Assembly: GCF_006265225.1 (NCBI RefSeq)
Contig: NZ_VDCS01000009.1
Coordinates: 1-64,000 of the forward strand
Length of the DNA stretch: 64,000 nt
From: Allotamlana fucoidanivorans
GTDB taxonomy: Bacteria > Bacteroidota > Bacteroidia > Flavobacteriales > Flavobacteriaceae
Direction: 5' to 3'
In this document: piece by piece, positions 6,860 to 14,215 of the stretch
How the letters are laid out: every line of letters begins with the position of its first letter
Numbering within the stretch: the first letter of the stretch is position 1
Translations under genes and position numbers: made by a program
Notes under the pieces: generated by a model
What the model was told of the DNA's origin: nothing
Seen by the model: the letters and a program-made list of their open reading frames with translations, nothing else
Database searches by the model: none

Positions 6860-8125
6860 CTAAACTAAAAACTGAAAAAGATCAGGTTTATCATTTAGAT
6901 AATCGCCATAGAAATTATGTTTTTTTAATTTAGCTATAAGAGGCGCTAAATCATCTGAAGATTTTAATTGCACACCAACTACAGCCGAACCATTTTCTCT
7001 GTTGGTTTTCTTAGCATATTGAAAATATGTAATATCATCATTCTCACCAAGAATATCAACCACAAATTCTTTTAAAGCCCCTGCTCGTTGAGGAAAGTTT
7101 ATAATAAAATAATGCTTTAAATTGGCATATAACAAAGCACGCTCTTTAATTTCAGGCGTTCTAGTAATATCATTATTGCTGCCACTCACTACACAAACCA
7201 CGTTTTTACCTTTGATTTTTTCAGCATAAAAATCAAGTGCAGAAATGCTTAATGCGCCTGCTGGTTCTACCACTATGGCATCTTTATTATAAAGTTCTAA
7301 AATGGTTTCACAAACTTTACCTTCAGGCACCGCTATTATATCATCTAAATACTGTTTACATATAGCAAAATTTAAGTTGCCCACCCGTTTTACAGCAGCG
7401 CCATCAATAAATTTTTCTATTCTACTTAACTCTGTATTTTTATTGTTTTTGATAGAAACCAACATAGAAGATGCGCCTTCGGGCTCTACACCAATAATTT
7501 TTGTTTGCGGGGATAATGTTTTAAAAACGGTTGACAAGCCTGCAGCCAAACCGCCACCGCCAACAGGAATAAATACATAATCAACAGCTACAGTTGTCTG
7601 ATCTAAAATTTCAAGTCCGATGGTAGCCTGACCTTCAATAACTTTTTCATCATCAAACGGATGAATAAAGGTTTTACCTAAAGCCTCACATTCGTTTATG
7701 GCAGCATAATAAGCATCATCAAAAGTGTCTCCTACAAGTTTTATTTCTATGAAGTGCTCTCCAAACATCTTAACCTGTTCAATTTTCTGGTTTGGTGTAG
7801 GAGCTGGCATATAAATGGTTCCGCGTATTCCCAATAGTTTACAAGATAACGCTACACCTTGCGCATGGTTTCCTGCACTTGCACAAACCACACCTTGTTT
7901 TGATTGCTTGGGCGACAAAGAACTAATTTTATTATAAGCGCCTCTAATTTTATAAGACCTAACTTGCTGTAAGTCTTCACGCTTAAAAAACACACGGGCT
8001 TCAAACTGTTTTGAGTACCTCAAGCTTTGACCTAAAGGCGTAACTGCCGATACTTTTCTAATAGTATCGGCAGCTACCTTTATATCATCTATTTTAGGAA
8101 AATATGTTTTGTTTTCCTTACTCAT
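6860..8125 (-). CDS. ilvA: Threonine ammonia-lyase (threonine deaminase), biosynthetic
   Basis: The protein has 421 residues and converts threonine to 2-oxobutanoate and ammonia, the committed step to isoleucine. The PLP Schiff-base lysine is K59 in SYKIRGAYN. The glycine-rich phosphate loop is GGGGLAAG at about 189-196, and SGSNND near 315 contacts the cofactor. The C-terminal ~85 residues (YFIINFPQRAGALKEFV) form an ACT-like regulatory domain, of the single-domain type with a shorter regulatory region than in E. coli IlvA. It is the last gene of the ilvD-B-N-C-A operon and begins 10 bp after ilvC ends. Confidence 0.94.
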   Translation of the reverse strand: MSKENKTYFPKIDDIKVAADTIRKVSAVTPLGQSLRYSKQFEARVFFKREDLQQVRSYKIRGAYNKISSLSPKQSKQGVVCASAGNHAQGVALSCKLLGIRGTIYMPAPTPNQKIEQVKMFGEHFIEIKLVGDTFDDAYYAAINECEALGKTFIHPFDDEKVIEGQATIGLEILDQTTVAVDYVFIPVGGGGLAAGLSTVFKTLSPQTKIIGVEPEGASSMLVSIKNNKNTELSRIEKFIDGAAVKRVGNLNFAICKQYLDDIIAVPEGKVCETILELYNKDAIVVEPAGALSISALDFYAEKIKGKNVVCVVSGSNNDITRTPEIKERALLYANLKHYFIINFPQRAGALKEFVVDILGENDDITYFQYAKKTNRENGSAVVGVQLKSSDDLAPLIAKLKKHNFYGDYLNDKPDLFQFLV

Positions 8126-8135
8126 AAATTGTGTT

Positions 8136-9611
8136 TTATACTATGGGCTTCATAGCGGTCATGGAAGCTCTTAAGAATTCTCCAACTTTTTCAACAGGAT
8201 GTTCTCTCAATACTTTATTAATAGCTATTAACTTAGCGTTATCAACACCTTTACCATTATCTTTTGCATAAGCTTTACCAATAACATCAGTTGATACTGT
8301 TTTCATAAAATCAGTCAATAAGGGCTTACATGCATGATCAAATAAATAACATCCGTATTCTGCCGTATCAGAAATCACACGGTTCATTTCGTATAATTTC
8401 TTTCTAGCAATAGTGTTTGCAATAAGCGGTGTTTCATGTAACGATTCATAATAAGCAGACGCATCAATAATACCTGAATCTGTCATCGCTTCAAAAGCTA
8501 ACTCTACACCTGCACGAACAAATGCTACCATAAGTACACCATTATCATAGTATTCTTGCTCTGAAATTTCAACATCACTCGCTGGAGTTTTTTCAAAATT
8601 TGTTTCAGCCGTAGCTGCTCTCCATGATAATAAGTTTTTATCGTCATTAGCCCAATCTTCCATCATGGTTTTAGAAAACTCGCCTTCAATAATATCATCC
8701 ATATGCTTTTGGAATAACGGACGCATGATATCTTTTAATTCTTCTGACAACTCAAAAGCTTTAATTTTTGCTGGGTTTGATAAACGATCCATCATGTTAG
8801 TAATACCACCGTATTTTAAACCTTCTGTAACCGTTTCCCAACCATACTGAATTAATTTAGACGCATAACCTGGGTCAATGCCTTCCTCTATCATTTTATC
8901 AAAACAAAGAATAGACCCTGTTTGTAACAAACCACAAAGAATAGTTTGCTCACCCATTAAATCTGATTTTACCTCAGCAATGAATGACGACTCTAAAACA
9001 CCTGCTCTGTCTCCTCCAGTCGCTACAGCGTAGGCCTTTGCTTGCGCCCAACCTTTTCCTTCTGGATCGTTTTCTTCGTGCACAGCAATTAATGTAGGCA
9101 CTCCAAAACCACGTTTGTACTCTTCACGAACTTCTGAACCTGGTGACTTAGGTGCCACCATAATTACTGTTAGGTCTTCCCGAATTTGCATACCCTCTTC
9201 AACAATATTAAATCCGTGAGAATATGATAAGGTAGCTCCTTTTTTCATTAAAGGCATCACAGCATTTACTGCACTGGTATGTTGTTTATCTGGCGTTAAG
9301 TTTAACACTAAATCGGCGGTTGGAATCAACTCCTGATAGGTTCCAACGGTAAATCCGTTTTCAGTAGCATTAACATATGAAGCACGCTTTTCTGCTATGG
9401 CTGCATCACGTAATGCATAAGACACGTCTAACCCGGAATCTCTCATATTAAGACCTTGATTTAATCCCTGAGCACCGCATCCTACGATAACGATCTTCTT
9501 ACCTTTTAAAGCATTTACTCCGTCTGCAAATTCAGAAGCGTCCATAAATCTACACTTCGATAATTGATTTAACTTATCTCTTAGCGACAGTGTGTTAAAA
9601 TAATTTCCCAT
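8136..9611 (-). CDS. ilvC: Ketol-acid reductoisomerase (NADP+), class II
   Basis: At 491 residues this is the long class II form, with a duplicated knotted C-terminal domain as in E. coli (short forms have about 330). The Rossmann motif GCGAQG is at 44-49. The Mg-binding acidic cluster includes [11 protein letters not shown] at about 218 and the ExxxE segments that follow. It isomerises and reduces acetolactate or acetohydroxybutyrate to the dihydroxy acids of valine and isoleucine synthesis, using NADPH and Mg2+. It sits 18 bp downstream of ilvN and 10 bp upstream of ilvA in the same operon. Confidence 0.96.
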
Positions 9612-9629: not shown

Positions 9630-10163
9630 TTATTGATTATTGAATGCCATAAGCAATTCTGTTATTTTCATTTCTTCTTTTGTTACTGCAATACGCCCTG
9701 AACGTACAAACTGCATAATACCAAACACATTTAAATCGCGTCTTAGCGATTCAATTTCATGGCGTCTTCCAGATTTTTCAAGTACAAAAAACTCTTTATT
9801 TACCGTTACAATTCTTGTATTACTTTCTTTTATAATGTTTTGAATTTGAGGTTCATCAAACAGTAATTCAGACTTGATTTTAAACATACAAGATTCTGTA
9901 AAGATAGTCTCTTCATTTGTATGATAATACGCTTTTATGGTTTCAACCTGCTTTTCAATCTGTTTTACAATTTTTTCAGCATTTGTTTTGGTTACATTTA
10001 CCACAATGACAAAACGATTCACGCCATCAATCTCAGACTGCGAGGTGGTTAAACTTTCTATATTTATATGTCTACGCTGAAATATAGCGGATATACGATT
10101 TAGCAAACCGATATTATTTTCGGTATAAACTGAAATTGTAAATGTTTTTATATCTTCACTCAT
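9630..10163 (-). CDS. ilvN: Acetolactate synthase small (regulatory) subunit
   Basis: The protein has 177 residues with an N-terminal ACT domain at about 7-82 (YTENNIGLLNRISAIFQRR), which binds valine for feedback inhibition. The C-terminal domain, from about residue 85, activates the catalytic subunit. It stimulates and confers valine sensitivity on IlvB. It starts 13 bp after the ilvB stop, so the subunits are translated from neighbouring cistrons. The symbol ilvN or ilvH depends on local convention. Confidence 0.94.
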   Translation of the reverse strand: MSEDIKTFTISVYTENNIGLLNRISAIFQRRHINIESLTTSQSEIDGVNRFVIVVNVTKTNAEKIVKQIEKQVETIKAYYHTNEETIFTESCMFKIKSELLFDEPQIQNIIKESNTRIVTVNKEFFVLEKSGRRHEIESLRRDLNVFGIMQFVRSGRIAVTKEEMKITELLMAFNNQ

Positions 10164-10176
10164 TGCTCTTCTAAAT

Positions 10177-11910
10177 TTAGCTTAATCTAACATCTGAAAC
10201 CGATGCTCCTGCCGGAATCATTGGAAACACATTATCTTCTTTTTCTACACAAACCTCTAAGAAATATGAATCTTTTGAAGCTATCATTTCTTTTACAGCA
10301 TCAGCCAACTCTTCTCTTTTGGTAACACGTTTACCATCAATATGGTAGCCCTTTGCAATAGTTACAAAATCAGGATTAGTCATTTCAGTTGAGGCATAAC
10401 GCTTATCAAAAAACAACTGTTGCCACTGACGCACCATACCTAAAAACTCATTATTTAAAACCACTATTTTTACAGGTACTTTTGTTTGAAAAATAGTGCC
10501 TAATTCTTGAATATTCATTTGATACCCACCGTCACCAATAATAGCAACCACTTCTCTATCTGGTGCTCCCATTTTAGCTCCAATAGCTGCTGGCAATGCA
10601 AACCCCATAGTACCAAGACCACCTGAGGTAATATTACTTTTGGTGATATTAAAATCTGCATACCTGCAAGCAATCATTTGATGCTGTCCAACGTCAGACA
10701 CAATAGCCGCATTACCCTTGGTTTCCATATTGATTTGTTTCAATACCTCGCCCATAGTTAAGCCTTCTTTTGTTGGATTAAGGTCTTCATTTATCACGCT
10801 TTCAAACTCAATATCATAAAGTTTTTTGAATTCCTGAAGCCAGGAGTCATGCGCATTCTCAGTCAGAGCCTCGGCTAACATAGCTAAACTTTCTTTTGAG
10901 TTTCCTAATACCGCTATATCTGTTTTAACATTTTTATCAATCTCAGCAGGATCAATATCAAAATGAATAATTTTTGCTTGCTTTGCATAAGTATTTAAAT
11001 CGCCCGTAACACGGTCATCAAAACGCATGCCTATAGCAATAAGTACATCACACTCATTAGTTAATTTATTTGGCGCATAATTTCCGTGCATACCAACCAT
11101 ACCAACATTTAACGGATGTGTTGATGGCAACGCAGAAGCTCCTAAAATAGTCCAAGCCGCCGGTATTCCTGCCTTTTCAACAACCGTTTTTAGTTCGGTC
11201 TCAGCTTCTCCTAAAATAACACCCTGCCCCCAAACAATTAAAGGTTTTTTGGCTTTGTTAATTAATTCTGCCGCGGCATCAATTGCCAATTGTTTTGTTT
11301 TTGGTACTGGACTATAACTACGAATACCTGTGCATTTTTTGTATTCAAAATCAAGCTCACCAAACTGAGCATCTTTAGTAATATCAACTAATACAGGACC
11401 TGGTCGGCCACTTTTTGCAATATAAAAAGCTTTTGCAATAGCTTCAGGTATATCTTCAGATTTTGTTACTTGACAGTTCCATTTTGTAACTGGTGTTGAA
11501 ATGCCTACTATATCTGTTTCTTGAAAAGCATCACTCCCTAAAAGATGAGATGGTACTTGCCCTGTAATACAAACTACAGGTGTTGAATCTATTTGTGCAT
11601 CAGCAATTCCTGTAATTAAATTTGTAGCTCCAGGTCCTGAAGTTGCCATAGCAACCCCTACTTTACCTGAAATACGCGCATAACCTTGAGCTGCATGTGC
11701 TGCACCTTGCTCATGACGTGTTAACACATGATGAATTTGATCTTGAAATTTAAATAACTCATCATAAACAGGCATGATAGCCCCTCCTGGATATCCATAA
11801 AGGATATCAACACCTTCAGCAATTAGGCATTTTATAATAGCTTCACTACCTGTTATTCGTTCTGTTTTACTTGCCACCTCTTGCTTATTATTTATTGTTT
11901 GTGTTTTCAT
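10177..11910 (-). CDS. ilvB: Acetolactate synthase large (catalytic) subunit
   Basis: A thiamine-diphosphate enzyme of 577 residues from the start chosen at 11910; an in-frame ATG four codons earlier at 11922 is possible. The catalytic Glu lies in TRHEQGAAHAAQGYAR near the N-terminus. The ThDP/Mg motif is GDGGYQMNIQELGT in the C-terminal domain, and a central FAD-binding domain separates the two PYR/PP modules. It condenses two pyruvates to acetolactate, or pyruvate with 2-oxobutanoate for isoleucine. It is second in the operon, after ilvD, and is followed by the regulatory subunit. A small hairpin (11929-11946) lies just before it. Confidence 0.95.
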   Translation of the reverse strand: MKTQTINNKQEVASKTERITGSEAIIKCLIAEGVDILYGYPGGAIMPVYDELFKFQDQIHHVLTRHEQGAAHAAQGYARISGKVGVAMATSGPGATNLITGIADAQIDSTPVVCITGQVPSHLLGSDAFQETDIVGISTPVTKWNCQVTKSEDIPEAIAKAFYIAKSGRPGPVLVDITKDAQFGELDFEYKKCTGIRSYSPVPKTKQLAIDAAAELINKAKKPLIVWGQGVILGEAETELKTVVEKAGIPAAWTILGASALPSTHPLNVGMVGMHGNYAPNKLTNECDVLIAIGMRFDDRVTGDLNTYAKQAKIIHFDIDPAEIDKNVKTDIAVLGNSKESLAMLAEALTENAHDSWLQEFKKLYDIEFESVINEDLNPTKEGLTMGEVLKQINMETKGNAAIVSDVGQHQMIACRYADFNITKSNITSGGLGTMGFALPAAIGAKMGAPDREVVAIIGDGGYQMNIQELGTIFQTKVPVKIVVLNNEFLGMVRQWQQLFFDKRYASTEMTNPDFVTIAKGYHIDGKRVTKREELADAVKEMIASKDSYFLEVCVEKEDNVFPMIPAGASVSDVRLS

Positions 11911-11928
11911 AATTCTCAACATTTGAGA

Positions 11929-11962: not shown

Positions 11963-13648
11963 TTAAAATGCATCTGTAACACATCCTTTTGAGGCTGGCG
12001 CTACCGATTTTGCATATTTGTATAATATTCCTTTTTTATGTTTTAGCTCTGGCTCTACCCACTGTGCTTTTCTGGCTGCTAATTCTTCATCAGAAAGCAA
12101 CACGTTAATAGAGTTATCTTCTGCACTAATTTTTATTCTATCTCCTGTTTTCACTAAACCAATAGCGCCACCAGATTGTGCTTCAGGGGTTATATGTCCC
12201 ACAACAAAACCATGAGTTCCACCAGAAAAACGTCCATCAGTAATTAAGGCCACTGATTTTCCTAAACCTGCACCCATAATTAAGGATGTAGGTTTTAACA
12301 TTTCAGGCATGCCCGGACCACCTTTAGGTCCTACATACCTAATGACGACGACATCACCGCGTTGCACTTCACCATTTGAAATACCTGTATTAGCATCTTG
12401 CTCGCTATTGTAAACCACGGCTTTACCCTCAAAAACCAAACCTTCATTTCCTGAAATCTTAGCAACCGCCCCTTCAGAAGCAAGGTTTCCGTAAAGAATC
12501 TGTAAATTTCCTGAAGATTTTAATGCTTTATCTTTTGGATAAATGACTTGCTGATCATCTTCAAAAGTCAATGGCTCAACATCTTTTAAATTTTCGGCTA
12601 AAGTTTTCCCTGTTACGGTCATACAGTCGCCATGTAAATAACCATTATCTAATAAATATTTCATTACAGCTGGGGTTCCGCCAATACCATGAACATCTTC
12701 CATAAGATATTTACCACTTGGCTTTAAATCCCCTATTAGCGGTGTTCTGTCACTTACACGTTGAAAATCCTCTAAAGTAAATTCTATATCAGCAGCATGA
12801 GCTATAGCTAAGAAATGTAATACCGCATTGGTTGACCCACCAAGGGCATTGACAACCGTAATAGCATTTTCTATAGACTTTTTAGATATAATATCTAAAG
12901 GTTTTAAATCTAATTCTAAAAGATTTTTTACAGCTATAGCTGTTCTTTCACATTCCGATAATTTATTAGGATTCTCTGCTGGAATGGAAGAGTTATACGG
13001 CAATGCAAACCCCATACACTCAATGGCTGAAGCCATAGTATTTGCCGTATACATACCACCGCAAGCACCAGCTCCAGGAATGGCTCTTTTAATAATTTCT
13101 TTATATTCTTCTTCATCAATCTCTCCTGCTACTTTTTGCCCCAAAGCCTCAAAAGCAGAAACAATATTTAATTTTCTCCCTTTATAATTTCCAGACTTTA
13201 TTGTGCCGCCATACATCATTATAGAAGGTCTATTAAGACGCAACATAGCAATAACCGCTCCAGGCATATTCTTATCACAGCCCACAACAGAGACCAAGGC
13301 ATCATAACTTTGGGCATTCATCACTGTTTCAATAGAATCTGCAATAATATCTCTTGAAGCCAATGAATAATTCATACCAGAAGTTCCCATTGAAATACCA
13401 TCACTAACACCAATAGTATTAAAACCTAAACCAACCAAACCTGCAATATTGCATTCTACTTTTAGCTCAGCAGCCAAACCATTTAAATGCATATTACACG
13501 GATTGCCATCGTATCCTGTACTAGCAATTCCTACTTGAGCTTTGCTCATATCTTCTTCAGTTAATCCTGCTGCATATAACATAGCTTGAGAAGCTGGTTG
13601 CGATTCATCTTGAGTTAACCTTCTACTATATTTATTAATTTCTTTCAT
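11963..13648 (-). CDS. ilvD: Dihydroxy-acid dehydratase
   Basis: This 561-residue protein dehydrates the 2,3-dihydroxy acids to the 2-keto acids that become valine and isoleucine. Iron-sulfur ligand cysteines are visible in NPCNMHL (C52), GCDKNMPG (about C124) and [12 protein letters not shown] (about C196). The C-terminal swivel domain carries [10 protein letters not shown]. It is the first gene of the five-gene operon ilvD-B-N-C-A. Upstream lie about 230 bp of untranslated leader, an intrinsic terminator and an Ile/Val-rich leader peptide, suggesting control by attenuation. Confidence 0.96.
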
Positions 13649-13882
13649 TTTTATTGCAAATAATTTTAAGCTTTATCTTAATTTCATTTATTATCTTAAA
13701 AGAATTATGATTTTTATCACAAATTCCACAAATACGTGTCGAAAATAATTTATTACAATGTTATAACGTTTTACCTCATTTTTTTTCAGTTAAATCCACA
13801 ACCCTAAAAAACACAACAACAAACTCATTTACAGTTATTTAAACTGTTTTTTTTATGATACCCAAAAATTAAAAAACTTCAT

Positions 13883-13913
13883 AAAAAAACCTTCCGCTTA
13901 GGGAAGGCTTTTT
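13883..13913 (-). terminator. Attenuator terminator of the ilv operon
   Basis: Read on the minus strand, a CCTTCC/GGAAGG stem (arms 13902-13907 and 13890-13895, 6-nt loop) is followed directly by a run of seven T. It lies about 28 bp after the stop codon of the leader peptide and about 235 bp before ilvD. It would terminate leader transcripts before they reach the operon. No other minus-strand gene lies between it and the leader peptide. Confidence 0.8.
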
Positions 13914-13940
13914 CCGTTCTATATTAATTTGTACCACCCT

Positions 13941-14000
13941 TTAGCGTTGTGAAATAATCACAACAACCTCAGAAATGATATTTAAACCGTATTTTTTCAT
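13941..14000 (-). CDS. ilv operon leader peptide (attenuation)
   Basis: A 20-codon frame from ATG (minus strand, at 14000) to TAA reads MKKYGLNIISEVVVIISQR. Seven of its nineteen residues are Ile or Val, clustered as II then VVVII, exactly the end products of the genes downstream. The Val/Ile codons lie partly inside a 7-bp hairpin (13946-13964, GTTGTGA/TCACAAC, 5-nt loop). Stalling at these codons would keep that hairpin from forming. An intrinsic terminator follows. Such leader peptides couple amino-acyl-tRNA supply to termination in proteobacterial ilv operons. Here the function is inferred from composition and position; an antiterminator pairing was not resolved. Confidence 0.82.
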   Translation of the reverse strand: MKKYGLNIISEVVVIISQR

Positions 14001-14088
14001 TTACTTTTACAAAAATTGACATAAAATTCATGACCACCAAATTTTTCTTAAAAAAGATAAAAACATATGCCGATTCTTTATTTTTTTT

Positions 14089-14096: not shown

Positions 14097-14111
14097 CATG
14101 CACAAAATAAT

Positions 14112-14215
14112 AGAGGAAAGATTTGACTGATTGCAACCTCTTTATACTTCTTTTAAGTATAAAATAAAAATGCTAAAGGCAGTGTAAACTCCCTTCGACG
14201 TTATCGTCAAATCTT
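14112..14215 (+). promoter_or_regulatory. SAM-II riboswitch with expression platform, controlling metK
   Basis: The aptamer (14112-14185) has P1 AGAGG/CCTCT (14112-14116 with 14137-14141). The L1 strand carries the conserved GATTTGACTGATTGCAA, and a distal GCTAAAGGCAGT segment can form the H-type pseudoknot (ACTG with CAGT, GCA with TGC). This is the layout of SAM-II (RF00521). The platform is also visible: 14118-14127 and 14206-14215 are perfect 10-nt complements. Pairing of these segments would destroy the aptamer. The second segment also overlaps a GACG/CGTC hairpin at 14197-14208 and ends 17 nt before the metK start. SAM binding probably represses metK. The class is recognised by eye, not by covariance search. 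Confidence 0.9.

Follow-up and report, generated by a model that had tools for sequence, protein, structure and literature searches.

A very probable isoleucine/valine leader-peptide attenuator upstream of ilvDBNCA in Allotamlana fucoidanivorans and its flavobacterial relatives

In Escherichia coli, ilvGMEDA is controlled by the ilvL attenuator, which combines a leader peptide rich in branched-chain residues with alternative helices and an intrinsic terminator. The ilv locus of Allotamlana fucoidanivorans, analyzed here in a window of 64,000 nt (the whole stretch of DNA examined), resembles ilvL in that a branched-chain leader peptide, alternative helices and an intrinsic terminator precede ilv genes. 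It differs from ilvL in that the leader has about 19 codons with Ile and Val but little Leu, that the transcript is predicted to start about 5 nt before the leader ATG, which leaves no room for a Shine-Dalgarno site, and that a conserved promoter-like module lies between the terminator and the first gene. Leader-peptide control of branched-chain amino acid genes is also reported, going by the title of the paper, from Staphylococcus aureus (PMC5794164), a member of the Firmicutes in which CodY is involved and in which the peptide, again by the title, is rich in leucine. Branched-chain amino acid control in Listeria monocytogenes, as outlined in PMC5864092, likewise belongs to the Firmicutes and involves CodY. 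The ilvBNC attenuator of Corynebacterium glutamicum, as described in PMC11857589 and PMC10272879, shares with the present locus an ilv operon, a leader uORF and several alternative hairpins, but it comes from an actinobacterium and has another operon order.

As of 2010, leader-peptide systems were stated to be demonstrated in Proteobacteria and Actinobacteria and in no other group, and the same paper added Firmicutes (PMC2965389), and short frames reminiscent of leader peptides are mentioned for Bacteroides in PMC7366714. Within the same bacterial family as our locus, Flavobacterium psychrophilum is reported to show strong clues that leader peptides upstream of amino-acid operons attenuate them (PMC9723704); there, as here, structured 5' regions with leader peptides precede amino-acid biosynthesis operons. 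The original prediction, made from the sequence of the locus, had called attenuation in Bacteroidota little studied; this is a fair statement, though it passes over those F. psychrophilum clues. Since flavobacterial leader-peptide attenuation has thus been predicted in print, the ilv attenuator belongs to a known kind. The main text of PMC9723704 contains no occurrence of "ilv", and the pairing co-variation, tandem types and P2 module described below go beyond that main text. Our literature search on attenuation in Bacteroidota found no account of this ilv leader, although an earlier prediction of it may exist. The newer parts are the P2 module and the predicted near-leaderless leader transcript, the literature search having been aimed at attenuation.

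On the minus strand of the window, a leader frame is followed by a hairpin, an intrinsic terminator and then ilvDBNCA. NCBIfam matches above cut-offs for all five genes confirmed the order ilvD (11963..13648, TIGR00110), ilvB (10177..11922, TIGR00118), ilvN (9630..10163, TIGR00119), ilvC (8136..9611, TIGR00465) and ilvA (6860..8125, NF006390/TIGR02079), each on the minus strand. Among the named loci compared, the closest relatives by IlvD are Algibacter onchidii (93% identity) and an uncultured Flaviramulus (92%). The leader lies between the ilv operon and metK, which is on the plus strand and divergent from it. A SAM-II riboswitch (RF01726, 56.6 bits, 14107-14186, plus strand) stands before metK, pointing away from the ilv leader, and is the sole Rfam match in the window at the gathering threshold. 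Sequence similar to the SAM-II region was also seen by eye upstream of ilvD in four near relatives (L002, L003, L010 and L019).

The leader frame MKKYGLNIISEVVVIISQR (13941..14000, minus strand) was identified by direct reading, in the list of open reading frames and by the comparative scan described below. It runs from an ATG at 14000 to a TAA at 13943-13941 and encodes 19 aa, with II as residues 8-9 and VVVII as residues 12-16, that is, a short frame with clustered codons for the operon's own amino acids. The reading and the NCBIfam matches thus agree with the original prediction of a 19-residue frame containing II and VVVII upstream of ilvD-B-N-C-A. The 7-bp hairpin that had been proposed over the Val/Ile codons was found at 13964-13946 (H1, 13946..13964, minus strand, GTTGTGA-TTATT-TCACAAC); it has 7 bp by eye and 8 pairs when folded, the final 33 nt of the frame giving -9.0 kcal/mol. 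The leader frame is separated from the structural genes by the intrinsic terminator with its T7 run (13883..13910, minus strand), consisting of GCCTTCC-loop-GGAAGG within 13910-13890 and seven T at 13889-13883. It had also been foreseen, and was seen on the minus strand both by direct reading and by our own scan, a generic terminator scan giving only its plus-strand mirror. From the end of the T-run to the ilvD ATG (13648) there are 235 nt, exactly the spacer length estimated before.

We scanned the regions upstream of ilvD, a small number of which belong to paralogues and one of which duplicates the window, for frames that start with ATG, hold 5 or more Ile/Val within 10 residues and have their stop 10-55 nt before an intrinsic terminator. 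The regions came from 80 named loci and from further genomes of the same family and order, and 235 of 239 records were kept, the others having too short an upstream sequence (L103 and L104) or an IlvD match starting past residue 40 (two records). One hundred of the regions were picked in order of IlvD similarity and not randomly, some rows being passed over (G065, G071 and G220 among them, as well as the lowest-ranked ones), and L001, a duplicate of L082, was left out of the pairing tests and later counts. A leader with a terminator was found in 107 of the 235 regions, falling to 97 when at least 6 and to 77 when at least 7 Ile/Val were demanded; the same scan gave 0/235 on reverse complements and 0/1175 on dinucleotide-preserving shuffles. 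The signal proved specific to Ile/Val when the scan was repeated with other amino-acid pairs on 234 regions: IV gave 106 matches versus 3 for LF, 1 for FS, 3 for LK, 3 for SK, 4 for KN, 4 for LS and 0 for TR, and the pairs that contain I or V share the signal (LI 82, IF 72 and LV 23).

Of the leader residues, 29.4% are Ile and 14.3% Val, versus 9.9% and 4.8% in null frames, the scan itself having selected for I/V. Leu is not enriched in the leaders (6.6% versus 11.5% in null frames), and leucine was therefore rejected as a sensed residue. In the leaders of 59 loci, 38% of the 205 Val codons are GTC, versus 8.2% of the 2257 Val codons in their ilvD genes. This excess is a rare-codon bias of the sensing frames and is possibly tuned to one particular Val tRNA; the window's own leader uses no GTC codon.

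The 114 distinct attenuators fall into 70 of type A, 29 of type B and 15 others. Type A, to which the window belongs, has peptides like MKKQILNIVSIIVIVIISQR and the terminator GCCTTCC/GGAAGGC, and type B is represented by peptides such as MKLRVVIISVIVIIIIPW, with the terminator GCCTGTATCA/TGATACAGGC. Two attenuators in tandem were found by the scan in 11 of the 235 regions, in the order A then B in 9 of them. These nine lie before ilvD in L008, L091, L138, L176, L180, L210, L217, L228 and L235. Two leader frames also occur in the tandem attenuators of Salmonella mgtCBR, as presented in PMC3641672, but with other signals and genes, and the window has a single attenuator. Leaders also occur beyond Flavobacteriaceae: four loci come from Saprospiraceae MAGs (L028, L039, L050 and L070), L014 from a MAG that carries the label Ignavibacteriae, L068 from a Bacteroidetes MAG whose family is not given, and L102 from another family of the same order.

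Two alternative sets of pairings involve the leader frame and the terminator. Segment 1 (ATATCATTTCT, 13971..13981, minus strand, about codons 7-10) would pair with segment 2 in a proposed 1:2 helix, which joins segment 2 to the early codons of the leader and has H1 as its apical part. Segment 2 (A-AGGGTGGTAC, 13931..13941, minus strand), which overlaps the stop codon by one base, can pair with segment 1 or with segment 3. Segment 3 (GCCTTCC, 13902..13908, minus strand) is the 5' arm of the terminator (the 3:4 hairpin) and the partner in the antiterminator. Across attenuators, segment 2 has a median start of 0 and a median end of +12 relative to the leader stop codon. The antiterminator pairing is GGAATGG with CCTTCC in type A and TGATACAG, overlapping a TGA stop, with CTGTATCA in type B; in L014 it is GGAATGG with CCATTCC, and in L163 AAGGGAT with ATCCCTT.

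Cognate 2:3 duplexes have a mean of -10.1 kcal/mol versus -7.5 (sd 0.21) for permuted partners (0/5000 permutations). Because the permutation tests retain the relatedness among loci, which inflates the all-locus result, the 15 other loci, whose terminator sequences differ from those of types A and B, form the better control; alone they gave -8.3 versus -5.9 kcal/mol permuted, again with 0/5000. Family-wide co-variation supports an antiterminator that excludes the terminator, two thirds of the 114 attenuators reaching p < 0.05 singly against shuffled linkers, with the window alone at p = 0.07. In an alignment of type A (40 of 42 rows, L049 and L135 being left out for a shifted stop codon), 2:3 pairing exceeded that in shuffles by a small margin, 84.1% versus 83.1% (10/500), with a covariation score equalled in 6/500.

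The 1:2 pairing is likewise stronger between cognate partners in type A (-8.5 versus -6.8 kcal/mol, 0/2000) and in the other types (-8.6 versus -6.3 kcal/mol, 0/2000), and is not significant in the permutation test for type B (p = 0.16). The outer 1:2 duplex of the window is weak (-5.5 kcal/mol). Over the 40 type A rows, the 1:2 helix and hairpin together have 84.9% of cells paired versus 36-58.5% when slid, a level reached by 3/500 shuffles, and they include 9 pairs with double changes, a number equalled by one slid version. De novo RNAalifold prediction on the aligned type A rows recovered both H1 and the terminator, 9 of their 15 pairs having double changes, and did not contain the outer 1:2 helix. 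In H1 itself, 5 of 6 pairs have changes on both sides in the type A alignment.

H1 has a mean of -6.2 kcal/mol versus -3.2 for synonymous recodings of the same peptides, and 48 of the 114 hairpins are singly significant at p < 0.05 (39/70 in type A, 4/29 in type B and 5/15 in the others). The idea that the hairpin is a by-product of the peptide was rejected for type A on these recoding controls, which are weak for type B. Peptide character, hairpin, antiterminator and terminator are therefore kept or co-vary in many genera, which is the conservation in relatives that the original prediction had anticipated. The same pairings bear on two other readings of the leader. It may be an ordinary small protein gene or a translation enhancer with an unrelated terminator, for which one could cite the recurring peptide start (MK...) and the A-rich start region. 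We consider this very improbable, because Ile/Val content and RNA pairings stay constant while other residues vary, segment 2 and the terminator arm co-change, in the listed cases 19-40 nt separate the stop from the terminator stem (10-55 being allowed by the scan), and stem changes that alter the peptide preserve a hairpin (by eye, in L124 and L128). Still more remote is a T-box or other metabolite riboswitch. The AGGGTGGTAC string after the leader resembles the T-box core, and this resemblance is all that speaks for such an element; but the ilv leader gives no match at the gathering threshold to any Rfam family, T-box included, and in relatives the string co-varies with its partners.

We return to the attenuator, and to whether a ribosome on the leader frame could choose between its pairings. 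The ribosome was assumed to cover 12 nt from the beginning of the A site, and 9 of the 114 attenuators were set aside because their 2:3 duplex was weak. Among the other 105, the centre of segment 2 stays free in 93 with the last Ile/Val codon in the A site and is masked in 96 with the stop codon there. By this geometry, segment 2 is masked at the stop and free during a stall on the regulatory codons. When the nascent RNA of the window was modelled without segment 4 and with the A site at V12 or I16, the 2:3 pairing was the minimum (-8.2 and -6.6 kcal/mol, respectively). In the model without a ribosome, segment 2 was captured by the 1:2 helix, and with the ribosome at the stop neither the 2:3 nor the 1:2 pairing formed. 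The complete terminator (-16.3 kcal/mol) was the minimum in every modelled state, versus -6.6 to -8.2 kcal/mol for the antiterminator. Because the finished terminator outweighs the antiterminator, read-through would have to be kinetic, decided during transcription.

Taken together, the locus very probably carries an Ile/Val leader-peptide, ribosome-mediated transcription attenuator before ilvDBNCA. The logic of the original prediction is in this way supported by the family-wide occurrence of leader and terminator and by the co-varying pairings. From this anatomy and the comparative pairing we infer sensing, stalling and termination as follows. RNA polymerase would start at a promoter that we call P1, about 5 nt before the leader ATG, and a ribosome would trail it through the leader frame, so that the attenuator would sense charged Ile and Val tRNA. 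With plentiful Ile and Val, the ribosome would reach the stop and cover segment 2, the 3:4 terminator would form and ilvDBNCA would be off from P1. If Ile or Val were short, a stall on the Ile/Val codons would open the 1:2 helix and leave segment 2 free to capture nascent segment 3, leading to polymerase read-through. In an untranslated leader, segment 2 would be sequestered in the 1:2 helix and the terminator would form. The ilv genes would thus probably switch on when isoleucine or valine is short.

The placement of P1 comes from promoter-like sequence directly before the leader frame. A -7-like box, AATTTTTG, lies at 14010..14017 (minus strand), matches 5 of the 6 specified bases of TAnnTTTG and ends 9 nt before the leader ATG. 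By direct reading, a -33-like TTG (14038..14040, minus strand) is found 20 nt before it, giving the arrangement TTG-N20-AATTTTTG. Among relatives, NAnnTTTG starting 12-60 nt before the leader ATG is present in 71/104 leaders versus a mean of 11.6 in mononucleotide shuffles, and exact TAnnTTTG before the ATG in 24/104 versus 5.5 in such shuffles. In a separate count, a box was found within the last 60 nt in 72 of 114 leaders; it ended 8-11 nt before the ATG in 42 of the 72, and a TTG stood 20 nt upstream in 27 of the 72, which is the commonest spacing. The -7 box is placed at -12 to -5 in PMC9723704, which would put the start at about 14005 and give a 5' UTR of about 5 nt. On the strength of this motif, the balance is somewhat in favor of a near-leaderless leader transcript that starts about 5 nt before the ATG.

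The original prediction had suggested that the spacer between the terminator and ilvD leaves room for a second element. The spacer does contain one, but in this genome it resembles a promoter/operator module at the DNA level, not an RNA element. This module, P2, consists in conserved order of TTGAACATCATA, TAA, the dyad yTGATnATCAr, TTR, TGAATTTAACC and TAnnTTCG/TTTG. In the window, all on the minus strand, site 1 is TTGGGTATCATA at 13854..13865 (family TTGAACATCATA), the central dyad is CTGTAAATGAG at 13824..13834 (family yTGATnATCAr), site 3 is TGGATTTAACT at 13788..13798 (family TGAATTTAACC), 67 nt from site 1, and the -7-like box is TATTTTCG at 13740..13747 (family TAnnTTCG/TAnnTTTG), for which the family distance from site 3 is 50-52 nt. 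The box reads TAnnTTTG in many relatives and TAnnTTCG in the window and its clade, at a fixed position.

In 225 regions (after removal of duplicates and of loci with IlvD identity of 50% or less), plain expressions matched site 1 in 87 and gave no matches on reverse complements. The distance from site 1 to site 3 was 67 nt in 64 of 70 pairs, and that from site 3 to the -7-like box was 51 nt in 40, 50 in 11 and 52 in 5 of 57. A position weight matrix put 101/225 regions over a score of 18; since it was trained on the same loci, the matrix counts are descriptive, and the fixed spacings are independent of it. The composite pattern was found in 12 of 40 genomes of relatives, our own genome included (24 of the 40 having an IlvD match), once in each, while the reversed pattern gave 0 matches in the 40. 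The window matches a stricter version of this pattern with 1 mismatch, and another version was loosened at one position to admit it. Ten of the 12 matches lie directly before ilvD and two about 1 kb before it. The latter are in G009 and G013 (loci L248 and L244), perhaps before an inserted gene.

These conserved motifs at fixed spacing make it likely that P2 is a real second promoter. Its operator is probably ilv-specific and the promoter probably activator-driven, judging from the same motifs. That this conserved block of 130 nt is instead a structured RNA is improbable. It is strongly conserved and would sit in the read-through transcript, and the window copy alone folds at -12.5 kcal/mol, a value with no shuffle control. 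Its dyad, however, has no covariation beyond independence in 92 loci (mutual information at most 0.16), and in 56 of 57 cases a -7-like box stands 50-52 nt from site 3. RNAalifold also found no structure in 62 ungapped rows, a weak test because column-shuffled controls were zero as well. No second attenuator was found in the window's 235-nt spacer. The spacer frames MSLLLCFLGLWI, which overlaps the P2 module, and MEFVIKIIILLR (GTG start) were rejected as chance, no terminator following either in our own scan.

Returning to P2 as a promoter, transcription that starts downstream of the terminator would speak against the original prediction. A promoter is likely there, but promoter-like sequence also stands directly before the leader frame. 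Because of this likely downstream promoter, the operon is probably not under attenuator control alone: P2 would, on its motifs, supply ilvD transcripts that probably escape the attenuator, and it would thereby blunt attenuator regulation. Among 142 family loci (147 minus 5 that are duplicates or have IlvD identity of 50% or less; module taken as a score over 40), leader and P2 module occur together in 52, the module without a detected leader in 25 and the leader without the module in 21; the remaining 44 have neither, a class that may include loci missed by the strict scan rules. No leader passing the scan was found in 69 of the 142, about half. The module is present and the leader was not detected in three near relatives (L010, L083 and L115, IlvD 92-93% identical), so P2 probably persists in relatives where no leader is detected. 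In Flavobacterium loci L040, L042, L046, L053 and L064 the leader is present, with its terminator only about 60 nt before ilvD, and no P2 module was detected.

It is conceivable, although unlikely, that the attenuator is minor or decaying, with P2 and its operator driving ilvDBNCA and P1 and the leader dispensable and being lost, a reading compatible with attenuation as such. The 25 family loci with a module and no detected leader, the three near relatives among the same kind of loci and the almost fixed spacing within P2 would all fit. Set against it, the window's own copy of the attenuator is intact, the Flavobacterium loci have a leader without the module, and Ile/Val codons, hairpin stability beyond recoding and co-varying pairings are kept across the family, which requires continuing selection on the leader. 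A more far-reaching reading, suggested by the arrangement of the motifs, is a composite control region in which an attenuator on a near-leaderless transcript is followed by P2, whose operator array would be dedicated to ilv and would bind a regulator of branched-chain amino acid genes; whether a lineage retains, loses or duplicates the attenuator would not depend on P2. This joint claim is almost as likely to hold as to fail, because it joins the likely P2 promoter with the somewhat less secure near-leaderless start. If it is true, translation of the sensor peptide would begin almost at the first nucleotide of the RNA.

Other amino-acid genes of the same genome have comparable leaders. A His-rich leader, MTFIHLHHHFQICSQAK (MTFIHLHHHF...), followed by a terminator precedes hisG (L250), and a Trp-rich one, MNAILNYTWWWCFRN (MNAILNYTWWW...), again with a terminator, precedes a trpE-like gene for a chorismate-binding protein (L254). 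A Thr-rich frame (TTTNITT) lies upstream of thrA (L257), with no terminator after it by our own scan, and the leuA-like loci L251 and L252 have no leader with a terminator. The his and trpE-like leaders suggest that attenuation is a habit of this genome for several amino acids, if not for all. Together with these two, ilv offers a concrete case of a leader frame almost at the 5' end of its predicted transcript. Overall, the comparative evidence from many genera supports ribosome-mediated attenuation in a phylum whose mRNAs are largely without Shine-Dalgarno sites, and a second promoter and a regulator are predicted for a biosynthetic operon that is widely kept in Flavobacteriaceae.
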